Assembly (NCBI GenBank): GCA_946403625.1
Contig: CAMJAP010000025.1
Span: 1 to 32,248, forward strand
Reading direction: 5' to 3'
Length of the DNA stretch: 32,248 nt
Origin: an uncultured Lachnospiraceae bacterium
Lineage (GTDB): Bacteria > Bacillota > Clostridia > Lachnospirales > Lachnospiraceae
The position numbers and the translations under genes were made by a program. The notes under the pieces are model-generated. The model made no database searches, was not told the origin of the DNA, and worked only from the letters and a program-made list of their open reading frames with translations. Of the stretch, positions 9,304-24,680 are shown in pieces; the stretch's first letter is position 1; every line of letters begins with the position of its first letter.

Positions 9304-10689
9304 CTAAACCTTACCATTCCGATCCGGCAAAATACGGGCGATCCTCCCCCATGGCGGTGTCATTTCTTCATTATTGACGATCCACAAAACCGGGATCCCC
9401 ATTGCTGCCTCTCGCTTTGGATAGGGTGCATATCCGTCTGTCAGGATGATGATGCTCACCGGCAGGTCATCTTCCATATGCTTTCGGATATATTGAAAGA
9501 TCTCCTCAAAGCTGGTACCGCCGCCCCCCTTCGGATGGATCACTTTGAATTCCTCTTCATCCCCAAAGGGCTCCGGTGTCACCACCTTTGCGTCAAAAAA
9601 GCCAAGCCACCCTTCCAGCCGGCCGTTAAACTGATCGACCGCCCCCTTCACCTCGGAATAGCAATCGGTGATCTCTTCGTCCGACATGGAACCGGAGGTA
9701 TCGATCATAAACAGGATCTTCTCTATCTTATCTTCTTTTTCATTAAAATCCGGCAGAAAAAAATCACTCTCCGAAAAGCGCCGGTCGGGAGGGCAAAAAG
9801 AATAGTCATTGATCTCTTCCTGCACAAATTCATCCAATATGGTACGCCAGTCCACCTGCGGATGCTTCAGTTCCTTCAGGTAACGCTCCACACATGCCGG
9901 TACCGAACCGCAAGCCTTCTTACCGCTCTGCAGATCTGCCTGTTCCCGGGCTTTCATAGACTCTGCCGCCTGCAGCATACGCCCTTCCCACATGGCCCGT
10001 TGCCGCTGACTCTCCGCCGTATCACTATCCTGCGCATCCGGATGGTTATCCCAACGCCCAGGCCTATTGCTGTCTCCTTTCGAATTGCCTTCGGAACCGC
10101 CCCCCTGACCTTTTCCGTTTCCCCGGTCATTCCCCGCTCCGGTCCCTCCGTTATCAGAGCCATCCACGCCTGCCTGTCCGCCGGAAACGCTGCTCTGTGC
10201 AGCCCCGGAAGCCTTCTGCCCGACACCGCCGCTTCCCAGCGCCGTGTACACTTCTTCCACCGTATATTGCCAGCCCTCTTCCCCGTCCGGCAGCTGATGA
10301 GGCTGCACTCCCCCGCAGGGATTGAGACAGATACTGTACTCATCCTCCCCATAGCTGCGCATGATATTGGAATTGACCACGATGTCCGCCGCCTCGTTAT
10401 AGCGATCCCTATCGTAGCCCTCCCTGCGCCGGAAATGCTCCAGGATCGTATGCAGCAGCAGATGTACCATCACATACTCCAGCTCGCAATCCATCAGGCA
10501 ATCCAGGAAGCGCGGGTTAAAGTAGATATTCTCCTTCCCGTCCGTCCATGCCGTCGCATTTTCTTCGCTCAGATGAAAATGCATATGCATCAGAAGCAGT
10601 CCGTAGAAGCCCTGCTCACACAACAGTTTCATACGGACCATCATGATCCTGCGGATGTACTCTCTTTTTTTCTGCTCAGATAATACCAT
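9304..10689 (-). CDS. VWA protein with degenerate metallopeptidase-like domain (DUF2201/COG3864 type)
   Basis: 461 residues. The N-terminal region (about 1-150) matches the putative metallopeptidase part of the family, but the usual HExxH-type motif reads H76-LLL-H80-TILE-H85, so the catalytic Glu is replaced by Leu. A Gly/Ser/Asn-rich linker (about 150-230) follows. The C-terminal VWA domain has a complete MIDAS: DTSGSMS, the GGGGTSFEE threonine loop and LTDGYA. Such proteins usually work with a MoxR AAA ATPase, here the overlapping upstream gene (14-base overlap). It is the last gene of the XRE-helicase-MoxR-VWA cassette; I see no hairpin terminator after it. Likely a chaperone-type partner in remodelling a target complex (inference). 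Confidence 0.85.
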   Translation of the reverse strand: MVLSEQKKREYIRRIMMVRMKLLCEQGFYGLLLMHMHFHLSEENATAWTDGKENIYFNPRFLDCLMDCELEYVMVHLLLHTILEHFRRREGYDRDRYNEAADIVVNSNIMRSYGEDEYSICLNPCGGVQPHQLPDGEEGWQYTVEEVYTALGSGGVGQKASGAAQSSVSGGQAGVDGSDNGGTGAGNDRGNGKGQGGGSEGNSKGDSNRPGRWDNHPDAQDSDTAESQRQRAMWEGRMLQAAESMKAREQADLQSGKKACGSVPACVERYLKELKHPQVDWRTILDEFVQEEINDYSFCPPDRRFSESDFFLPDFNEKEDKIEKILFMIDTSGSMSDEEITDCYSEVKGAVDQFNGRLEGWLGFFDAKVVTPEPFGDEEEFKVIHPKGGGGTSFEEIFQYIRKHMEDDLPVSIIILTDGYAPYPKREAAMGIPVLWIVNNEEMTPPWGRIARILPDRNGKV

Positions 10690-11794
10690 TCAGCATACTC
10701 CCCTTGGTCTGCAGCCACCGTACAAATTCCGGGATCTGCATCAGTTTCTTCCGGTAGTCCTTCTCTATGGAAAGATAGTCCTTAAGCAGCACCACGGAAA
10801 AATCAGGCGGCATATGGGATGCATATATAATCGAATTACGGATCTGCTCCAGATCATCCCGATGATCCCTTGCATACGCCGTCATTGCCGATACCAGCGC
10901 ATATAGGCAGTCTGCGGATTTTGGCATCGTTCTCGCCCTGCCAGCAAAAATCTCTTCCATCTCCGGCAGATCCCGATACACCTGTGACCACGCACGAAAC
11001 TCGGATGCTGCGCCCATACCCACCAGGCCGGCGATCAGCAAAAAGACCGCGTCCACATCATCACTGACAGAGTTTAAGATGTTGCTCACCATTTCCCAGG
11101 TACGCGGGGATGCATAGGCAAGTTCTTCCGCAGAAGTTCCGAAGCCCATCAGTGCCTCCGGCTGAAACTCCAGATAGCCCAGCACCATGGGGTGGATGCC
11201 GTGAAAGACTGCCCATGTTCTCCAGGCAGACAGACTCACCTCGATCTCGATATGCAGCAGTCGGTTGGCCAGCGCTTTGGGCATCTTGTACGCCACCGAC
11301 TTGTCCGTCACACGGTTGCCTGCCGCGATCACAATGCAGTTGTCCGGCAGTTTATGCTCACCTACCACACGATCCAGCGTGATCTGGTAGGCGGCTGCCT
11401 GTACCGACTGCGGCGCCGAGGAAATCTCATCCAGAAACAACAGATTGATCACATCCTCCGACGGATCCATATCAAAGATCTTGGGTTTCAGCCACACGGC
11501 CAGGGTCTTGTCCTCATTCGCCGTGGGAATGCCGCGCAGATCAATGGGATTGAACAATAACAGTCGCACGTCCGTCACAACCGCCCGCTTTCCCGTATTA
11601 CTCTCCAGTTCCTCTGCGATCTGCCGCACGCACTGTGACTTACCGACACCGGGCGGTCCCCAGAGCATGACCGAAGGCATATTGCTCACGCTCTCCCCGT
11701 TGCGGATCAGATTGCCGTACGAACCGGCCAGTATGCGTACCGTCTCTCCCACCGACATTCCGGGAATATTTGTCAAATGCAGATCTTTTGCCAT
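10676..11794 (-). CDS. MoxR-family AAA ATPase
   Basis: 372 residues. Walker A GPPGVGKS (46-53), Walker B LLFLDEISSA, sensor-1 region IVIAAGNRVTD and a C-terminal helical lid typical of MoxR ATPases, which act as chaperones with VWA partners. The start ATG is one base after the helicase stop, with GGAAGGGG as ribosome site inside the helicase 3' end; the stop overlaps the VWA gene by 14 bases. This tight packing makes a fixed helicase-MoxR-VWA unit likely. The client is unknown; the helicase next door is the natural candidate (inference). Confidence 0.9.
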   Translation of the reverse strand: MAKDLHLTNIPGMSVGETVRILAGSYGNLIRNGESVSNMPSVMLWGPPGVGKSQCVRQIAEELESNTGKRAVVTDVRLLLFNPIDLRGIPTANEDKTLAVWLKPKIFDMDPSEDVINLLFLDEISSAPQSVQAAAYQITLDRVVGEHKLPDNCIVIAAGNRVTDKSVAYKMPKALANRLLHIEIEVSLSAWRTWAVFHGIHPMVLGYLEFQPEALMGFGTSAEELAYASPRTWEMVSNILNSVSDDVDAVFLLIAGLVGMGAASEFRAWSQVYRDLPEMEEIFAGRARTMPKSADCLYALVSAMTAYARDHRDDLEQIRNSIIYASHMPPDFSVVLLKDYLSIEKDYRKKLMQIPEFVRWLQTKGSMLNGII

Positions 11795-11795
11795 C

Positions 11796-14700
11796 TTATT
11801 CGTCCCCTTCCGTTTCTACACCGAGCTGTTCATCCAGCTCCAACAACTGTTTTTTGTACGCCAGGATCTGATCGGCATAATCTTCCGGTGCCGCCATTTC
11901 TCCCTCCAGAAAAGTCCTGCGCTGTCGTAACCTCTCCCGCTCCTCGGTCAGCGTCTCCAGTCGTTTGCCCAGCTCATCCAGGCAGTTGTCGATGCGGACC
12001 AGCAATCCCGCATCGCTCTTGCCCACATAGACCACATAGTTACCGCTCCTGCGCAGACACAGCACCGGATTGTCTTTGGTCGCGTGCGCCGGCAGGATCA
12101 CCTGAAAGCCCTGATACTCTGCAATGACCTGCTCCTGTCTGGTCGGTTCTTCCGGATGCGCTGCCGCAAATGCCAGCTCGCGGAAATCCTTTCGCTCTTC
12201 CGCTTCGTACTCTCGCCGGTTGGCCTGATAAAACGCCCGGTCCTCATCACACTTCACGATCAGTTCCTGCAGATCCGACTCTCTGGGCGGGATCTTATCC
12301 AGTTCCGCACGGTATTCTTCCATTTTCTGACGGATCTTGCGCTGCAGGATCTGATAACGGGCCAGTTCATTTGCCGCTTCCACCCGCTGTTTCACCAGCG
12401 GATTGCCCACCGCCAGTGCCTTAACCTCAGCATATTTCAGCACGGTATCGTCCACATCCTCACTGCTGCGCTCCGCCGCCATGCCGGAAAGCAGATCGGA
12501 AATGAATCTCTGCTTGGTCTCCAGCAGCTGCCAGGAATAAGCATCAAAACTGCCCTCCGTAATATACCGGAACAGCTGCACCTCTTTGTTCTCGTTGCCC
12601 TGGCGCAGGATACGCCCTTCCCTTTGGACCATATCCGCCGGCCGCCAGGGAACATCCAGATGATGCAGAGCGATCAGCTTGTCCTGCACATTTACACCCA
12701 GCCCCAGCTTGAAAGTAGAACCGATCAGAATGCGCACCACCCCCTGCCGCACCTTTGCAAACAACGCCTCCCGCTGCTTATCCGTACCTGCACTGTGAAT
12801 ATAGGCGATCTCCTTTTCCGGAATGCCACGCGCGAGCAGCAGCCGCTTCAGCTCATCATAAACATTAAAGCCTTCCTTCGGTGTGGACGTATCACAAAAG
12901 ACCAGCTGTGTGCTCTTCTGTGCCATGGTCTTATGGTAGATCCGTGTCACCTCTTCCGCACAGTGCCATACCTTGGATTCCCGTGCAAAGGCTGCATCCT
13001 CCTCTACCAGCCGCAGATCCAGTGCCGCCTTACGACCATCTGTGGTGATCAGCAGCATATTGTCTGTCGTGCGGCTCACACCGCCGCGCCGTACCAGATC
13101 GGCCCGCTCGGAGATCTGTTTCAGATAGGCCTGAAACTCCGGTGTCTTCTGCAGCACGATATCCCGGTAGCCATCATGTACCGGCACACCCTGGCTGCCC
13201 TCCATGGAATGGAAATCCGCAAATGCCGCCAGCATGGTCGTCAGCTCCGGTATATTATGGAAGCGCGAGAAACGGGTGGCCAGACGATAGGCACTGGTAT
13301 CCACATCCACCTCAAACTCCGTATGCGGTTCCGCAAACATGCCGATCCAGCTGTCGAAATTCTGCAGTTCCAACGCCGCCAGCTCGCCCCCCTGCAGATA
13401 GCTCTGCATAATAAATGCATCCGTCACACTGTTGGTGATGGGTGTACCGGTAGCGAAGACCACACCCTTACCGCCGTTCTGGTGCTGCACGATCCGCACT
13501 TTTTCCATCATATCCTTACACTTGGAGGAGCCGGTCTTGCTGATCCCCAGCACATTTTCCGTCTTGGTATCGATGGGAACATTCTTAAAATTGTGTGCCT
13601 CATCCACAAAAAGCCGCTCGATTCCCAGCGCGTCAAAACAGATTCCCGTTTCTTCCTTCTCAGTGATGAGTTTGGCCAGTTTCTTCTTCAGGTCCTTGAT
13701 CCTGCGCTCCAGCCCCTTGGTATTCTTATTGGCACCGCCGTCCCGGATGTCTTCGCAGCTTTTGATCTCCCTGCGCAGCGCATCCTCCTGTGCCGCTTTG
13801 GAAACCGGGATCATAGAAAAGCAGCTGTAGGGCATCAGGATCGCATCCACATCTGCCTTTTGGATAGCTTCCAAAGTCGCCTGTCGTTTCTTTGGTGAAA
13901 AACTGCCCGGAGTCACCAGCAGCACCTCCGCACCGGGATACATTTCATAGAAGAAATGCTCCCACTGCCCCAGGATATTGTTCGGCACCACATAAAGGAT
14001 CTTTTTGCATAATCCCTGACGCCGCATCTCCATCCCGGCCGCGATCATAATATAAGTCTTACCGGAACCTACATCATGTGCCAGCAATGTGTTGGGCGTA
14101 AACAAAATGCGCGCCACCGCATTTTTCTGATAAGGAAACAGGCTCACATCCTGCGCCATCCCCGGAAACTCCAGAAAACCACCGTCAAAATGCCGCTGCC
14201 GGATATTACCGTACTTTTCCTCATAGATACCGCGCAACAGCTTGAACCGCTCCGGATCCTGCCATACCCACTGCTGGAAGTCACTGATCATCTGCTTCTG
14301 CTTCTCCATGGCATCCACAGTGCATTCTTTATTAATGACCTTCTGCACGCCGGATTTGGTATGCTCGCTCTTCACTTCATCATACACAGCCACGGAACGC
14401 TGGTTTAAGGTACGGAATAGGATATCCAGCCCGTCCCAGCCCTTGCCTTTGAACCTTTTCGCACATCCGTATTTGGAGGCAAAGGAAGAACAGATGATAC
14501 GCATATTCCGCATCATCGTGATCTCCCAACTGCCGGTCACCGCATCGTGGCGGATCTCGGAATAGCGCAGATATCTCTTGTATCGCTCAAAAAAATCGGA
14601 ATCCGTGGAATTCTCCACAATAAAATCCATGATCACTTCCCCCGGCACCCAGGGGGACCCCAGTGTGATGTAGATCTCACTTGCTTTTAATGCCGGCGCC

Positions 14701-15344
14701 AGCAGTTTTTCCAGCGCTTCCACATTAGCCGAAAAATACCCATGATAGTTGGCATTTTCTGCCTTGGCGATCTCCAGTTTCCTGCGGATATTCCCCGAAA
14801 GATACTCATCCGCCATCTCCCAGCCCATATAGAAGCATTCGCCCCAGGTGTCCGGATTCTGGTAGATCGAGCCTTTAAGACGCTCGATCACCTCCCGGTA
14901 TTCCGCCCCGGTGATGGCAGCGATATACTCGATGTCCACACATCCTTTGGTATTCAGGCATTTGATCAGGCCATCCGGGATACTCTCCGCACGCACCCCC
15001 GCCACGGAATCGTCCGTATCGTAGAAGTTTTCCCAATCCATGGGCAGTTCCATAGAAGTCACATCCTGCGTGTGTTTCTCCGTCGCTTCTTCAATCTGAA
15101 GTTCCTGAAAATCCTGTAGATCGTCACCTGCGTCCTCCGGCCGGATGTCCTCTTCCCCGGAAGGATCTTCAAAAAACGGGAACCTCGCCACCTGGTTCTC
15201 GTGCAGCAGTTCTTCGAATCCATCCTCGTCCGCTTCCGGCTCACACTCGTCAAAAGCCCAGTCATCCCGGCCGTCTTCCTCTTCGAAGACCGGCCAGTCC
15301 GCCTGCGCATCATCTTCTTCCTGGTGAAAAAACCAATCCTTCAT
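11796..15344 (-). CDS. Large SNF2-type helicase, COG4646-like, without methylase motif
   Basis: 1182 residues. An acidic N-terminus (first ~100), then a region resembling the spacer of the large helicase/methylase proteins of conjugative elements (YLSGNIRRKLEIA, ANVEALEKLLAP, ITLGSPWVPGEVI). Helicase core: DVGSGKT (about 421-427), DEAHNFKN (about 580), GTPITNS, GLGVNVQDKL and QREGRILRQGN (about 905). The C-terminus is charged and probably coiled coil. No NPPY/DPPY methyltransferase motif was seen, so only the translocase part is kept. SD GGAGGTGA precedes the ATG; the XRE gene ends 32 bases upstream. The MoxR gene follows after one base. Likely moves on double-stranded DNA or remodels protein-DNA complexes (family knowledge); the biological role is unknown. 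Confidence 0.87.
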   Translation of the reverse strand: MKDWFFHQEEDDAQADWPVFEEEDGRDDWAFDECEPEADEDGFEELLHENQVARFPFFEDPSGEEDIRPEDAGDDLQDFQELQIEEATEKHTQDVTSMELPMDWENFYDTDDSVAGVRAESIPDGLIKCLNTKGCVDIEYIAAITGAEYREVIERLKGSIYQNPDTWGECFYMGWEMADEYLSGNIRRKLEIAKAENANYHGYFSANVEALEKLLAPALKASEIYITLGSPWVPGEVIMDFIVENSTDSDFFERYKRYLRYSEIRHDAVTGSWEITMMRNMRIICSSFASKYGCAKRFKGKGWDGLDILFRTLNQRSVAVYDEVKSEHTKSGVQKVINKECTVDAMEKQKQMISDFQQWVWQDPERFKLLRGIYEEKYGNIRQRHFDGGFLEFPGMAQDVSLFPYQKNAVARILFTPNTLLAHDVGSGKTYIMIAAGMEMRRQGLCKKILYVVPNNILGQWEHFFYEMYPGAEVLLVTPGSFSPKKRQATLEAIQKADVDAILMPYSCFSMIPVSKAAQEDALRREIKSCEDIRDGGANKNTKGLERRIKDLKKKLAKLITEKEETGICFDALGIERLFVDEAHNFKNVPIDTKTENVLGISKTGSSKCKDMMEKVRIVQHQNGGKGVVFATGTPITNSVTDAFIMQSYLQGGELAALELQNFDSWIGMFAEPHTEFEVDVDTSAYRLATRFSRFHNIPELTTMLAAFADFHSMEGSQGVPVHDGYRDIVLQKTPEFQAYLKQISERADLVRRGGVSRTTDNMLLITTDGRKAALDLRLVEEDAAFARESKVWHCAEEVTRIYHKTMAQKSTQLVFCDTSTPKEGFNVYDELKRLLLARGIPEKEIAYIHSAGTDKQREALFAKVRQGVVRILIGSTFKLGLGVNVQDKLIALHHLDVPWRPADMVQREGRILRQGNENKEVQLFRYITEGSFDAYSWQLLETKQRFISDLLSGMAAERSSEDVDDTVLKYAEVKALAVGNPLVKQRVEAANELARYQILQRKIRQKMEEYRAELDKIPPRESDLQELIVKCDEDRAFYQANRREYEAEERKDFRELAFAAAHPEEPTRQEQVIAEYQGFQVILPAHATKDNPVLCLRRSGNYVVYVGKSDAGLLVRIDNCLDELGKRLETLTEERERLRQRRTFLEGEMAAPEDYADQILAYKKQLLELDEQLGVETEGDE

Positions 15345-15376
15345 TTCGCATCACCTCCAAAAGAGAGCGCCTTGAT

Positions 15377-15634
15377 TCAGGCACTCATTTCGAACTGCTG
15401 CGTGTGTTCCAGCACCAGGATGTCGTCGATCGGTACGCCGAACACCTCCGACAGCACCACCAGGTTGTCCAGGGTGGGCATTGCTGTACCGTGCTGCCAC
15501 TTGTAGATGGCCTGCGGCGTACCAAAGCCGAAGATCATCTGCAGTTCTCTGACCGACAGACCGGAAGCCACTCTCAGCTCCGTGATCCTGCGGCCTGTCT
15601 CCATCATATCGATTACCGGATAACTCTGTAGCAT
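15377..15634 (-). CDS. Small XRE-family HTH regulator
   Basis: 85 residues, essentially one Cro/CI-type helix-turn-helix domain: RITELRVASGLSVRELQMIF, a recognition helix around TPQAIYKWQHG, and the closing PTLDNLVVLSEVFGVPIDDIL. Start ATG with GAGGGAGG before it. It is the first gene of a likely operon with the helicase, MoxR and VWA genes, with only 32 bases before the helicase, and probably controls that operon. The region upstream has a perfect palindrome and several repeated words that may be its operators. Confidence 0.85.
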   Translation of the reverse strand: MLQSYPVIDMMETGRRITELRVASGLSVRELQMIFGFGTPQAIYKWQHGTAMPTLDNLVVLSEVFGVPIDDILVLEHTQQFEMSA

Positions 15635-15958
15635 ACTTTTTCCCTCCCTCTGTTAATATAAACGACGACTGCCGGATTCCGTACAATTCACGGAAAATCA
15701 TTTTTAAAACATTACATCAAAAATCTTATCATGATAAATGTCCAAAAAAGTGCCCAAAAAGACACAAAAAACACTTATCCTGTCAAATTCAAGATAAATG
15801 CCTCTGATCCTGTCTTAGAAAGCAATGCCTTTCTGCAAGTATTTATCCTTTCGTGTTGTCGAAAACTCGGGGGATGCCCCCATTAACGTCTATCTTAGAA
15901 CAAGTCTATCATAACTGTTTTTCTTCGTCATTATACCTGTAGTATAAATCGAATAAAC
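15635..15958. promoter_or_regulatory. Gene-free leader of the XRE-helicase cassette with repeated words
   Basis: No coding signal. Seen: perfect palindrome TTATCATGATAA (15726-15737); GATAAATG at 15733-15740 and 15793-15800 (60 bp apart); ATCCTGTC at 15777-15784 and 15807-15814 (30 bp apart); TCTTAGAA twice (near 15813 and 15893); near-tandem TGTCCAAAAAAG/TGCCCAAAAAG from about 15740; and a small GGGG/CCCC hairpin near 15870. A weak minus-strand promoter TTGTAC...TTTATA lies close to the gene. The spacing suggests operator sites, but which protein binds is unknown. Confidence 0.5.
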
Positions 15959-19238: not shown

Positions 19239-20792
19239 CTATAAATATGCCGGCTTGCTTTCTTTCCTGGCAACCGCTGCCGTGATCAACACTTCTTTCG
19301 CCCCCGTCATCGTCGGCACTTCAAACAATGCATCTTTCAGGATATCCCGTACCACCGCATTCAGCCCGCGGGCACCGATGCTCATTTCGTTCACCCGGTC
19401 GATGATCACATCCAATGCCTCGTCCGTGAACCGCAGCTGTACATTGTCCTCGATCATAAACTCGCGCTCGTATCTCGAAAGGATGCTGTCCTCCGGCTCC
19501 ACCAGCACGCGTTTCATGGTCTCCCGATCCAGTTTTTTCAAAACCGTGACCGTACTGAGTCGTCCTGCCAGTTCCGGTTTCATCCCGTATTCCATCAGAT
19601 GCTCGGTCTTTAATAACTCCCCGGTCATCTCAAAGGTCTCTTCCCCGGAAACTTCACTGCCAAAACCGATGCCGCTCTGTACATATTCCTTCCGCACGAT
19701 CTTGTCCAGTCCTTCAAAAGCCCCGGCACAGATGAACAGGATATCCGTGGTGTTCATCAGCAGGATCTCCTGACCGCTGGATTTGTCCTGCAGCGGCACA
19801 TCGATGTCCGTGCCCTCAAACATGCCAAGCAACTGCCCCTGCAATTCATTATTGATATCGCCGCCCTTGGAATAGAGTTTTGCCGGGATGATCTTGTCAA
19901 ATTCATCACAGAAAACGATCCCGCATTCGGTCAGTTCGATATCTTTGCCCGATTTGAGATACAGATTCAAAAGACTTTCTTCTTTATTGCGCCCCTTCCA
20001 CGGCGTTGCCACGATCCCGCTGAAATCCGAGATCACCACCGGCACCGGCACCAGATCAGTCAGCCGCCGGATCATCTCGGTCTTGCCGCAGCCGGAAGGC
20101 CCCACCATCAGCACATTTGTCTTGATCAGATGCGCATCCGGATACACAATACGCAGGAAATGATTGTAGACCGCCGTGCTGAGCACTTCCTTTGTCTCGT
20201 CCTGCCCGATCACAAAACGATCCAGGTATTCCTTGATCTTGCGCGGTGTATAGTCACGGATAAAGTTCCTGCAATCTTCCATAAACGGCAGATCCGCACG
20301 GTTTCGGACTTCTTCCGTCTTCCGCGGCATCTTGATATTGCGCACTTTATTCTGCTGATAACGGATACGGCAAACCGCCAGCTGTCCCAGCGCATCCTCT
20401 GCCTGCTGGCGATCCGAATCCCGCATCAGTTCGTATTCCATAAAGGAAAAGAGTTCTTCCAGATCATCATTGGTGATCTCGGTCTCAACGGCCTTTGCCA
20501 GATAAAAGACCGGATCGTTCTTGTAGGCGGATGCCGCCTCCCGGATGATCGCCCAAAACGGCGTCCGGTAGCCTTTTTCCTTAAAGCTGGCCCCCATCAG
20601 TTTGAACACGCTGTCCAGATTGCGCTCGCTCTCCGGCCGTGTCATCATAATATAATGCAAAAGAATGCGCAGATAATCGACGATCAGCTGCTCATGCGAA
20701 AAAGCGCCCCCGGCTTCTTTGTACTGCACCACCAGGTTCTTTATGTATTGCGTGCATTCCTCATCGTTTTGACACAAAAAGATCTGCTTCAC
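19239..20792 (-). CDS. ClpX-like AAA+ ATPase without zinc domain (second of a tandem pair)
   Basis: 517 residues. Residues 1-185 are a mostly helical domain I do not recognise. The ClpX-type core follows: YLDRFVIGQDETKEVLSTAV, Walker A GPSGCGKT (231-238), Walker B CDEFDK (Asp296-Glu297), arginine finger ELAGR (Arg411), sensor-2 IGAR (Arg475). The loop GIGF (374-377) corresponds to the IGF loop by which ClpX docks on ClpP. The pore-1 GYVG of ClpX is replaced by a TPWKGR segment and the zinc-binding N-domain is missing. The start is GTG directly after the stop of the upstream paralogue (TAAGTG), with GGAGGT inside that gene, so the two are coupled and probably made in fixed ratio. No function is assigned. 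Confidence 0.85.
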   Translation of the reverse strand: MKQIFLCQNDEECTQYIKNLVVQYKEAGGAFSHEQLIVDYLRILLHYIMMTRPESERNLDSVFKLMGASFKEKGYRTPFWAIIREAASAYKNDPVFYLAKAVETEITNDDLEELFSFMEYELMRDSDRQQAEDALGQLAVCRIRYQQNKVRNIKMPRKTEEVRNRADLPFMEDCRNFIRDYTPRKIKEYLDRFVIGQDETKEVLSTAVYNHFLRIVYPDAHLIKTNVLMVGPSGCGKTEMIRRLTDLVPVPVVISDFSGIVATPWKGRNKEESLLNLYLKSGKDIELTECGIVFCDEFDKIIPAKLYSKGGDINNELQGQLLGMFEGTDIDVPLQDKSSGQEILLMNTTDILFICAGAFEGLDKIVRKEYVQSGIGFGSEVSGEETFEMTGELLKTEHLMEYGMKPELAGRLSTVTVLKKLDRETMKRVLVEPEDSILSRYEREFMIEDNVQLRFTDEALDVIIDRVNEMSIGARGLNAVVRDILKDALFEVPTMTGAKEVLITAAVARKESKPAYL

Positions 20793-22316
20793 TTAACTCT
20801 CTACCTCCGGCAATCCGTCATCTGCGGATGTACCTTCCACCTCATACATTGCCTCCGCACCGTTTAAGATCACATCTTCATTGATCACCACGCGCTTCAG
20901 CCCCTTCATTTCCGGTGCACGATACAGCACTTTTCGCAGCGCCTTACCCAGGATACTCTGCAATGCTCTCGCACCCACCGGTGTTTTCAGTGCCTGCCGT
21001 GCCACCGCCAGCAACGCATCGTCCGTAAAGATCAGATCCGCCGCAACCGAAAGCTGCAGTTCCCGCTCATAACGCTCGATCAGGTTATCCTTCGGCTCGG
21101 TCAGGATACGGATCAGGTCCTGCTCGGTCAGGCGTTCCAAAACCGACACCGTCGATACACGGCCTGCCAGTTCCCGTTTCATTCCGTATTCCATGAGTAC
21201 TTCATGGTTGATATTGTCCCGGATGAACGACAGATCCATCTCCTTTTCCAACGGAGATAAGAATCCGATGTTGCCTGGCAGATTTTCTCTTTTCTTCTTA
21301 TCCGATTTGATGTATTCCTCAATGCCCTGAAATGCCCCCGCCAGCACAAACAGCATATGCGAAGTATCCAATAACAGCGGCATCCCGTCAGCTTTGAGTT
21401 CGATCTCGCTGCCTTCGAGCATCGTCAGCATCTGCGACTGCACATCGTCATGAATATTGACGCCGCGCTCCGAAATGGCCGGAAGCAGCAGTTTGTCAAA
21501 CTCATCCATAAAGATGATCCCCCGTTCCGCATCCGCCTTTTTCCGTCCGGCTGCTTCATAGAGTTCCAGCAGGATATCTTCCTTATGTCTGCCGCGGAAC
21601 TGGCTGGCTCCCAGCGAAGATACATCCGTAAAGACCATAGGGTAGTCCACGATGTCGCGGATCCGCCGCATGATCTCGGTCTTGCCGCAGCCCGAAGGAC
21701 CGATCAGCAGCACCACATTGGGCGCAAATTTCTGTTCCGGGTGACGCAGTCGTTTTCCATGACCGTAAACCGCCGTGCAGACCGCCATCTTGGCATCGTC
21801 CTGCCCGATGATATAGTCGTCCAGATATGCCTTCATTTCCGCCGGTCGCTTCCACGACTCCTTCGGAGCCGCATCCGACATCTTTTCCAGATAGGTGCGC
21901 CGCATACGGGTGATGCGCCCCAGCACATTCCGCTCGCGGCTGTTCATGGATTTGTCCACCGCTTTGCGCAGTGTATCCGCCTCCAGGAAATCCAGAATAA
22001 ACCTCGCCCGCTCCCCGAAGATCTCGGTGGAGTAGGACAGGTCTTCTTCCAGTTTTTCCAGAACATGCAAAAGGGAGCGCATCTGCGGCATAATGCGGGA
22101 GTCCTCGATCACACGGAAACACAGGATCTCCAGATAACTGAGCGCATCCGCGTCTGCAATCTGCACATCATCGCAAACGATCGCCAGCCTTTTGACAATA
22201 TATTCCGAGATGTCCTTGCCGAGCATGGAATTATCCAGCAGTTTATTGCCTGCTGCCCCGATCGGCATCCCGAACATCTTATTCTTTTTTTGAATTTCCT
22301 GAAACAGATTGATCAT
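20793..22316 (-). CDS. ClpX-like AAA+ ATPase without zinc domain (first of a tandem pair)
   Basis: 507 residues. Residues 1-155 are helical and unfamiliar and differ from those of the partner. Core: YLDDYIIGQDDAKMAVCTAV, Walker A GPSGCGKT (206-213), Walker B MDEFDK (Asp271-Glu272), NIGF (349-352, possible ClpP-docking loop), arginine finger ELAGR (Arg386), sensor-2 VGAR (Arg450). The pore-1 segment reads SQFRGR where ClpX has GYVG. The pore-2 region is shorter than in ClpX. Paralogous to the next gene over the whole core, and both differ clearly from canonical clpX at 26694-28259. First gene of a four-gene operon with GGDEF and MATE genes and its own promoter. It may form a hetero-oligomer with its partner (inference). 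Confidence 0.85.
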   Translation of the reverse strand: MINLFQEIQKKNKMFGMPIGAAGNKLLDNSMLGKDISEYIVKRLAIVCDDVQIADADALSYLEILCFRVIEDSRIMPQMRSLLHVLEKLEEDLSYSTEIFGERARFILDFLEADTLRKAVDKSMNSRERNVLGRITRMRRTYLEKMSDAAPKESWKRPAEMKAYLDDYIIGQDDAKMAVCTAVYGHGKRLRHPEQKFAPNVVLLIGPSGCGKTEIMRRIRDIVDYPMVFTDVSSLGASQFRGRHKEDILLELYEAAGRKKADAERGIIFMDEFDKLLLPAISERGVNIHDDVQSQMLTMLEGSEIELKADGMPLLLDTSHMLFVLAGAFQGIEEYIKSDKKKRENLPGNIGFLSPLEKEMDLSFIRDNINHEVLMEYGMKRELAGRVSTVSVLERLTEQDLIRILTEPKDNLIERYERELQLSVAADLIFTDDALLAVARQALKTPVGARALQSILGKALRKVLYRAPEMKGLKRVVINEDVILNGAEAMYEVEGTSADDGLPEVES

Positions 22317-22413: not shown

Positions 22414-24546
22414 CTACTCCGTAAGATTTACATAGATCTCTTTTTGAATGATCCCGGAATGTTTCTTTTCCCTCATCCTGACGATCAGATCACGGTTCCT
22501 GTGAAGGCGCACAAAAAGGCCCGAAAACCGTATGCAGACACGGTCCGTTTCGCAGCGTTCCAGCAGATCCTGTCCCAGTTCGATCCTGTAAGCCCGCCCC
22601 TTTTCCGTCCGGATCTGCAGTTTGCCCAGCCGCTTCTTGCGCCCGTCAACACAGATCGTATGCACCTCCGCCATGGCGAACAGATAGACCAGACCGGCGT
22701 GTATCCCGGCAATCCCGCCCAGGCAGCCGGTAGTAACCGCCACCGCCGTTCCTACCACAGCGGCCCGGCTGCGGATGTGATTCTTCTCACCTCTGTCCGT
22801 CGCATCCCCATCGGTCTCAGCACTCTGCACCACCGGGAGCGCTACCGTTGCCGCCGGTTCGGCAATGCACTCCGGCAAAATCGTTTCCGAAACCACTGCT
22901 TCTGCCGGCTCCGCGATCCCCCCGGGATAAGGCGTTGTTTGCACAATGTCGGACTCTTTGCTATAGGGAGCGACATCCCGGCTCTCTTCTGTTCCGCCCG
23001 GCTCCGTCAGATCGCAGATTTCACGTTCTTCGTGATCGGGTTCCGGTACGGTTATCGCCGGTTGTTCCGGAATGGTTTCCTTCACATTTTCAGGCAATTC
23101 AATGCTCGGCTGCGGTTCGTCCCGGTCGGATCCGTTTGCTTCCTCCTGCCGTACAGGTTGCGGTGTTGGTGTCGTCTGATCCTGTTCCGGTTCTTCTTCC
23201 TCCTCGTCCGCTTGCGGAGTTTCGGGCTCCTCTCGTACTTCCTGCCCCCGCGATATCGTACGGATATCCGCTTTCAGGATCGGCTCCTCCACCAGCCATT
23301 TCCACACGCCGGTCGGGTTTCCATCCGCATCAAATACGGGATCTCCGTCCAGCCGGTAACCGCGAAACTCCTCCCCATCGGCCATCTCCGGCACCGGAAC
23401 GGCACTGTATTCTTCCCCGTAGCGTGCTTCAAACGAATGATCCGGCATGCCGTCACCATCCGCATCCTCACCGTAATACACCATATAACGCTCTGTGTCC
23501 CAAAGCGCATCCAGCACTACATCCCCGTCCGGATCCCACTGCCAGGTTTTTCCGGAAGTTCCGTCCGCAGCAAACAGCTTCTGCCCCTCATACGCATAGC
23601 CGTCAAAATGAAAGCCGCTTCTGTTTTCGTCCGTTACCGGAACGATCGCAGGGATCTCCTCGCCGTAGGCTACGCGAACGCTCCGGTCCGGCACGCCATC
23701 CCCGTCTGCATCGCTGCCGTAGTGCAAAAGGTAGGTCTTGGTCTGCCATCTCGCCTGCAATTCCAGTCGGGTCTCCGCAAATTCCGTATCCTCCAAAACC
23801 GGCGTTCCTTCCGCGTCATAATAGCGTGTATCTCCGCAGTAAAACCCGGCAAACGAGTACCCTTTCCGTTGCGGCACGCGGATCCCGGGCAGGCTGCCGC
23901 CATACGACATCGTTTCTTCCTGCAGCAGCCGGTCCCCATCCATATAACGGATCCGAATCGGCACAGACAGATCCGTATAGGAAAGTGTGTTATCATACCA
24001 GCACTCTGCCTTTGCATCGTACCAGTGCAGCGTTGCCGAGTAGGTCCGGTTTTGCGTGATCGACACACGGCTCACCCCGTCACTTTGCTCCGCTCCGGAA
24101 ACATTCCACTCGATATCATACTCTTTGACGACTTCGTTCCGGTCTTCGATCCGGGCTTCCAGGGCAGCATCTTCCCCTTCCCCCGTTTTGCGCAGCACAA
24201 AGCGCCCCAGAGAAGACAGCTCGCAGGTCATCTGTCTCTCCCATCGTCCGGTACATGTCTTTGGCGGATCATCATAGTAAAAATTCGGACATTTGACGCA
24301 CACATAGACCTGTCGGTCATTGTGATCCTTGTAGGATTCATAGATCCACCCGTCGCACTCGATATGCACTTCCTCGTAGCATCCGCCGTCTTCGCTATGC
24401 GTATGCTGCAATTCTACGGACGGTTCCCCCGTGGTCTGCTCCGGCCCGGCAGCGCTGATCGCATCCCACTTTCCTCCGCAAGCCAGCAGCAAGAGAAACG
24501 GCAATAACTTCCTGCCACCGGTCCTTATTCTGTATTCTTTTTTCAT
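22414..24546 (-). CDS. Surface protein with InlB-type repeats, membrane anchor and basic C-terminal tail
   Basis: 710 residues from the ATG at 24546, which has GGAGG eight bases before it (an upstream ATG at 24567 lacks one). Signal peptide with hydrophobic core LLPFLLLLAC; the LLAC could be a lipobox or cleavage may occur after AISA. Next a His/Cys segment (HTHSEDGGC and six Cys between 56 and 108) as in clostridial surface proteins, then three Listeria/Bacteroides-type repeats (about 205-427) with two DADGDG calcium-loop-like insertions (279-284, 361-366), a Glu/Pro/Thr-rich stalk (about 430-585), one Gly/Ala-rich membrane segment (about 594-627) and an 80-residue basic tail, which would be cytosolic. 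No sortase motif. The function is unknown; it could be an adhesin or surface sensor. Confidence 0.8.
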   Translation of the reverse strand: MKKEYRIRTGGRKLLPFLLLLACGGKWDAISAAGPEQTTGEPSVELQHTHSEDGGCYEEVHIECDGWIYESYKDHNDRQVYVCVKCPNFYYDDPPKTCTGRWERQMTCELSSLGRFVLRKTGEGEDAALEARIEDRNEVVKEYDIEWNVSGAEQSDGVSRVSITQNRTYSATLHWYDAKAECWYDNTLSYTDLSVPIRIRYMDGDRLLQEETMSYGGSLPGIRVPQRKGYSFAGFYCGDTRYYDAEGTPVLEDTEFAETRLELQARWQTKTYLLHYGSDADGDGVPDRSVRVAYGEEIPAIVPVTDENRSGFHFDGYAYEGQKLFAADGTSGKTWQWDPDGDVVLDALWDTERYMVYYGEDADGDGMPDHSFEARYGEEYSAVPVPEMADGEEFRGYRLDGDPVFDADGNPTGVWKWLVEEPILKADIRTISRGQEVREEPETPQADEEEEEPEQDQTTPTPQPVRQEEANGSDRDEPQPSIELPENVKETIPEQPAITVPEPDHEEREICDLTEPGGTEESRDVAPYSKESDIVQTTPYPGGIAEPAEAVVSETILPECIAEPAATVALPVVQSAETDGDATDRGEKNHIRSRAAVVGTAVAVTTGCLGGIAGIHAGLVYLFAMAEVHTICVDGRKKRLGKLQIRTEKGRAYRIELGQDLLERCETDRVCIRFSGLFVRLHRNRDLIVRMREKKHSGIIQKEIYVNLTE

Positions 24547-24680
24547 CTGGTTTTCCTCCTTGACCATTTCGGAGGATAGCCGATCGACAGATCCCGTCTG
24601 TCCATGAAAGTTTTGTCAGATTGTGCGAGAAAGAAAATATCATATCCGTTTCGTTTTGTCCACCCCCAATTTTAATCTTT

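Follow-up and report, generated by a model that had tools for sequence, protein, structure and literature searches.

A conserved tandem pair of divergent ClpX-like proteins in Lachnospiraceae that may form a mixed ring docking on ClpP

Contig CAMJAP010000025.1 of an uncultured Lachnospiraceae bacterium (assembly GCA_946403625.1; the 32,248-nucleotide stretch analysed here is called the window) encodes two adjacent ClpX-like proteins, P1 and P2 (Table 1). We propose that P1 and P2 form a mixed ClpX-type hexamer that docks on the cell's ClpP and has its own substrates, a reading we consider moderately probable. A preliminary description, made from the letters of the window, had suggested a second, possibly hetero-oligomeric, unfoldase for ClpP. 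This is still the best reading, given the constant pairing, the abutting or overlapping genes, the separation of the two proteins into two sister groups and the asymmetry of their docking loops; it needs correcting in that the ClpX beside the pair is a non-canonical one and that 19 of 42 paired P2 proteins have no IGF-like docking tripeptide. The genes run P1 then P2 on the minus strand with the junction TAAGTG, and the coordinates, strand and abutment first reported for them proved exact.

Both proteins have a ClpX-type AAA+ core. The four motifs ascribed to it (GPSGCGKT, DEFDK, ELAGR and GAR) are all present in P1 and P2 at the residues originally given, and Pfam places AAA_2 and ClpB_D2-small in both. 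Their top NCBIfam matches are the ClpX equivalogs PRK05342 (237 bits for P1 and 284 for P2, against a cut-off of 359) and TIGR00382 (212 and 258 bits against 370.75). Under NCBI's rule, P1 and P2 are hence ClpX-like, but not ClpX. A profile search placing both in a well-described family that does not work with ClpP had been named as a refutation, and this did not occur. HslU was rejected as an identity (132 and 121 bits, far under its cut-off, 362), as was a role as a defence system, since the PADLOC matches were weak (the best was DolB, 1.3e-11 for P1 and 6.4e-7 for P2) and covered only part of the protein. The zinc-binding domain is missing, as claimed: zf-C4_ClpX matched neither P1 nor P2, while the third ClpX of the window does have a match. 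We aligned 54 P1 proteins (alignment A2, picked from the best 120 of 638 found) and 60 P2-type proteins (A1, picked from the best 120 of 5569 found). Neither alignment shows any variation at the Walker A lysine, the Walker B DE, the arginine finger or the sensor-2 arginine, and P1 and P2 would thus each seem capable of ATP hydrolysis. The predicted model of P1 matches solved ClpXP structures, and the P2 core was judged from sequence only.

The pore-1 loop had been read as changed to QFRG in P1 and PWKG in P2, and this is what we find at residues 239-242 and 264-267. An aromatic residue is kept in the loop in 45/54 P1 and 60/60 P2-type rows, and the net charge around it averages +0.7 (P1) and +1.3 (P2), compared with -3 or -4 in canonical ClpX. 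The RKH motif, which according to one report occurs only in enzymes of the ClpX family (PMC7112951), is found in all ten canonical ClpX rows but in 0/54 P1 and 0/60 P2-type rows. Substrates other than those of ClpX would be expected. The pair thus fails three defining ClpX features (the cut-off, the zinc domain and RKH), yet most likely works like ClpX.

P1 occurs in 31 of 35 genomes of the genus, and P2 is adjacent in all 31 (in one, G305, P2 is broken in its assembly). Two genomes (G306 and G310) have a second tandem pair elsewhere, and both genes are present at 33/33 loci. The genomes without the pair are G300 (99% complete), G327 (94%), G301 (77%) and G302 (67%). Searching the family with P1 at E 1e-60 gave 2 of 299 genomes and searching the order with the P2 N-domain gave 2 of 392; these all belonged to the same genus, with none outside it. 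A search of the class at E 1e-100 with A3, a third group made up of metagenome proteins, gave 0 of 391 genomes, which shows little because the search had no positive control. A collection of named genomes gave 46 loci, many of them ordinary ClpX, and 21 with the pair (L042-L062), of which 20 are from Lachnospiraceae and one is from Bacillota; where the source is given, it is rumen, omasum or other gut. One of these loci (L062:608-3903, plus strand) has a divergent pair in reversed order, P2-like then P1-like, with unrelated genes alongside, so that tandem pairing is not confined to a single gene order. Of 49 locus rows, among which some genomes appear twice because they came from two collections, 48 have a second frame that, counted from its first possible start, abuts or overlaps the first, and the remaining row has a gap of 26 bases. 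Such frames would fit coupled translation.

In a tree of the AAA+ core, P1 and P2 form two groups of 21 and 22 rows (bootstrap/Shimodaira-Hasegawa-like approximate likelihood-ratio test, SH-aLRT, 100/97 and 100/99), apart from a group of ClpX and third-copy proteins (13 rows, 100/100) and from A3 (7 rows, 100/99). A quick tree rooted on ClpX, with long rows kept, joins P1 and P2 (SH-aLRT 95) and leaves A3 outside. The simplest account would be one ancestral ClpX-like gene, already with this N-domain, that was duplicated into the pair. A phage origin was rejected: a viral scan with A3 gave nine loci, which matched only residues from 173 on and not the N-domain.

ClpX contacts ClpP through its IGF loop, and the claim that both proteins keep an IGF at this place holds, as both align with the IGF of solved ClpX chains. 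It had also been said that a buried IGF would speak against docking; in the predicted P1 model the IGF lies in coil. The P1 columns are conserved (I45, G54 and F51 of 54) within a loop whose adjacent columns vary, which is more than chance, and the P2-type columns are less so (I32, G48 and F51 of all 60 rows). If an IGF-like tripeptide is defined as [ILVM]G[FYL] at the docking column, 52/54 P1 and 23/42 paired P2 rows have one; in each set, one row scored as lacking it reads FGF (P0178, P0043). For 12 of the 19 P2 proteins without the tripeptide, a listed P1 has a longest contig of equal length, taken as being the same contig, and this P1 has IGF in 12/12 cases; for the other seven, there was no such partner among the matches listed. 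A mixed ring would allow this asymmetry, which is less readily accounted for by two independent rings, each in need of ClpP.

The N-terminal sequences, first described as unfamiliar and helical, are indeed helical, but not wholly unfamiliar. The profiles of the P1 and P2 N-domains show a weak relation (HHalign 79.7, p 1.5e-5), and the two are probably related to each other; the P2 and A3 profiles are clearly related (HHalign 99.9, E 9.4e-37). The profile-database search proposed earlier gave as its best Pfam/NCBIfam match DUF4240, on a relative and under cut-off (E 0.0019; E 0.012 on the N-domain of the window protein). Residues 37-100 of P2 also resemble the all-alpha domain of VirD4/TraG-type coupling proteins, a domain that confers substrate specificity. 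Against a profile built on 14 of these domains, of which conjugation genes in the same genus supplied 13 and a protein search one, P2 gave HHalign 93.4 (p 2.4e-7, score 44.6), and the A3 N-domain matched in the same register (90.8, score 43.6). Permuted-column controls (n=60, one being a reversal) scored at most 16.6 for P2 and 20.0 for A3, and 36 control segments from 11 other protein families at most 16.7 and 19.0. One study describes the all-alpha domain of coupling proteins as facing the cytoplasm, and its function in VirD4 as studied with chimaeras (PMC7431656).

A search of the bacterium's own genome gave five ClpX-type proteins: P1, P2, P0003 in the window, a ClpX on contig C85 and a divergent protein on contig C53. 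P0003 has a zinc finger and no RKH, and had been taken for the canonical ClpX. This is refuted: the clpP-linked clpX is on C85, in the order trigger factor, clpP, clpX, lon, and P0003 falls in a group separate from canonical ClpX (quick tree, SH-aLRT 100). Its linker of about 110 residues is rich in acidic residues, and its gene is usually beside HtrA. The fifth protein (L010:5268-6710, minus strand, 480 aa) has the pore loop GYRG and an AIGF loop, and its gene adjoins genes that, from reading their sequences, resemble McrB and McrC. We also noted, on C108, an open frame of 87 aa that is similar to the C-terminus of ClpX (L011:4120-4383, plus strand), perhaps a remnant, and a protein (P0015) on a 2059-base contig that combines a canonical-looking ClpX zinc finger with a P1 core (91% identity), perhaps an assembly chimaera.

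The genome has four ClpP-family genes. Two extra ones, on C58 and C5 (L090, L091, L094, L095), lie near genes for coupling proteins, an arrangement that would suit carriage by conjugative elements. At E 1e-30, ClpP is matched in 34/35 genomes of the genus, and in 30/35 this is beside a ClpX match on the same contig. The ClpP on contig C112 was considered as a dedicated second ClpP for the pair, but it has close relatives (61-79% identity) in only 5 other genomes of 35, and so does not track the pair. Since ClpP is near-universal in the genus and the C112 form rare, the housekeeping ClpP is the likely partner. In the mechanism we propose, coupled translation would yield balanced amounts of P1 and P2, and the ring would mix them. 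P1 would make most of the ClpP contact via its IGF loops, and the coupling-protein-like N-domain of P2 would recruit substrate, so that the housekeeping ClpP would be fed substrates that ordinary ClpX would not select.

Many relatives share the gene order HtrA, third ClpX, exported protein, P1, P2, Cache-GGDEF, MATE. The exported protein begins with a part rich in Cys and His and contains repeats, a stretch of low complexity and a single membrane helix. It ends in a conserved tail, about 75 residues long, and has no Pfam or NCBIfam match. Its tail is found in 27 of the 35 genomes, all pair-bearing (in 21 of the 27, directly upstream of P1), and in none of the four pairless ones; it was not found in pair-bearing G305, G319, G322 and G325, and no gene of this kind lies next to the second pairs. 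A functional link between this protein and the pair is possible. Further away, positions 9304-15701 (minus strand) hold a row of genes for a DUF2201 protein (metallopeptidase-like and VWA-like), a MoxR-like AAA protein, an SNF2-like helicase of 1182 aa that weakly matches defence helicases, and a protein of 116 aa with no Pfam match.

Table 1. Positions in the window of the ClpX-like gene pair, its domains and motifs, and two neighbouring genes
Feature	Residues	Position	Strand	Remark or basis
P1, first ClpX-like subunit		20793..22316	-	507 aa, ATG start
P1 N-domain, helical	1-157	21846..22316	-	profile comparison, model
P1 Walker A GPSGCGKT	206-213	21678..21701	-	sequence
P1 pore-1 loop QFRG	239-242	21591..21602	-	alignment
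P1 IGF, ClpP-docking position	350-352	21261..21269	-	alignment, model
P2, second ClpX-like subunit		19239..20792	-	517 aa, GTG start right after P1 stop
P2 N-domain, helical	1-182	20247..20792	-	profile comparison
P2 segment like coupling-protein all-alpha domain (VirD4/TraG type)	37-100	20493..20684	-	profile only
P2 Walker A GPSGCGKT	231-238	20079..20102	-	sequence
P2 pore-1 loop PWKG	264-267	19992..20003	-	alignment
P2 IGF, ClpP-docking position	375-377	19662..19670	-	alignment
Exported single-pass protein		22414..24567	-	directly upstream of P1; possible partner or client
Third ClpX paralogue P0003		26694..28259	-	zinc finger, no RKH; neighbour, not part of pair

Other explanations of the pair can be weighed against this evidence. 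P1 and P2 could be two separate homohexameric ClpX paralogues, expressed together from one operon, each docking on ClpP with its own substrates. Every catalytic motif is kept in both subunits, both window proteins have the IGF, and there are precedents for several single ClpX copies, such as the three of Myxococcus xanthus (PMC11423568). However, neither gene was found alone at any of the 33 loci, and the uneven loss of the IGF-like tripeptide (19/42 paired P2 against 2/54 P1) would be odd if each ring needed ClpP, so we regard separate rings as unlikely. Slightly less likely still is a mixed ring that no longer works with ClpP, and instead unfolds or disassembles a client, perhaps the upstream exported protein, without degradation. 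The degenerate IGF of many P2 rows and the restriction of the exported protein's tail to pair-bearing genomes would both fit such a remodelling motor, but the P1 IGF is an island of conservation, and four pair-bearing genomes and the second pairs do without the tail. It is very improbable that the genes are decaying clpX duplicates with no distinct function; although the G305 P2 is broken and the P2 docking loop is variable, the Walker, arginine-finger and sensor-2 residues are invariant, the pore loops are conserved, and both groups have good support and stand separate from ClpX.

Several points also weigh against a mixed ring on ClpP. The 19 paired P2 proteins lacking an IGF-like tripeptide read, for example, STF, QGF or RGF at this place, and a study of E. 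coli ClpX reports badly impaired binding to ClpP with I268L, F270L and V274A (PMC7112951); if only half of the loops are present, the ring may therefore show weak ClpP binding or none. Neighbouring genes are inherited together in any case, and so pairing alone is no proof of a mixed ring. The structure model of a whole protein is of P1 as a monomer, the alignments are selections from about 8000 scored candidates, and the AAA+ core tree was built without the long rows of the C53 paralogue and of P0178, with P0193 included under A3. The coupling-protein likeness was first spotted by eye and then tried with four coupling-protein profiles, and the 14 rows of VirD4/TraG form were chosen after inspecting a 41-row alignment. 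A profile of 27 mixed coupling proteins gave a weak match to P2 (probability 6.9, p 0.0052), sets of 6 and 4 proteins gave only 62.5 and 77.4, and the P1 N-domain gave 0.5, which is no likeness. The matches of P2 and A3 do not count as two independent ones, since the profiles are related to each other. Foldseek and VIA-align searches with the P2 N-domain had no coupling protein among the matches listed. As the structure searches gave no confirmation, we hold shared ancestry of the P2 N-domain and the coupling-protein all-alpha domain, as suggested by the profiles, to be fairly probable and not more.

The most far-reaching form of our proposal is that this would be the first two-subunit, obligately hetero-hexameric ClpX feeding ClpP, with a substrate-facing domain of coupling-protein all-alpha ancestry, one subunit keeping the docking loop and the other free to lose it. 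We put this forward only tentatively. In the titles and abstract starts of the open-licence papers listed in our searches, no description of a hetero-hexameric bacterial ClpX, or of a ClpX with a coupling-protein domain, was recognisable. The ClpX of ClpXP (E. coli, Neisseria, B. subtilis and others) has the same AAA+ core fold, catalytic motifs and IGF position; the pair differs in having two genes, no zinc domain or RKH, another pore-1 loop, helical N-domains and scores under the cut-off. VirD4/TraG-type coupling proteins (CD1115-like) share by profile the domain resembling P2 residues 37-100, with no likeness to P1, and their motor domain is another type of ATPase than ClpX. M. xanthus ClpX3 is a divergent extra ClpX described as lacking the zinc domain, N-domain and RKH (PMC11423568). 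Compared by description only, it shares with the pair the lack of zinc domain and RKH, but is an isolated single gene. Pex1/Pex6 is a mixed AAA+ ring with two paralogous subunits, as we propose for P1 and P2, but it is eukaryotic, has two AAA+ domains per subunit and is not ClpX-type.

Work on ClpX concerns a ring built from six copies of one subunit. A ClpX made by two genes, with a docking loop that one subunit may lose, would be a natural experiment on the number of IGF loops that ClpP needs, and the pair could inform how selection of substrates through RKH is replaced and by what route mixed AAA+ rings arise in evolution. The domain like that of coupling proteins would, in addition, link a protein-degrading motor with a domain of the conjugation machinery.
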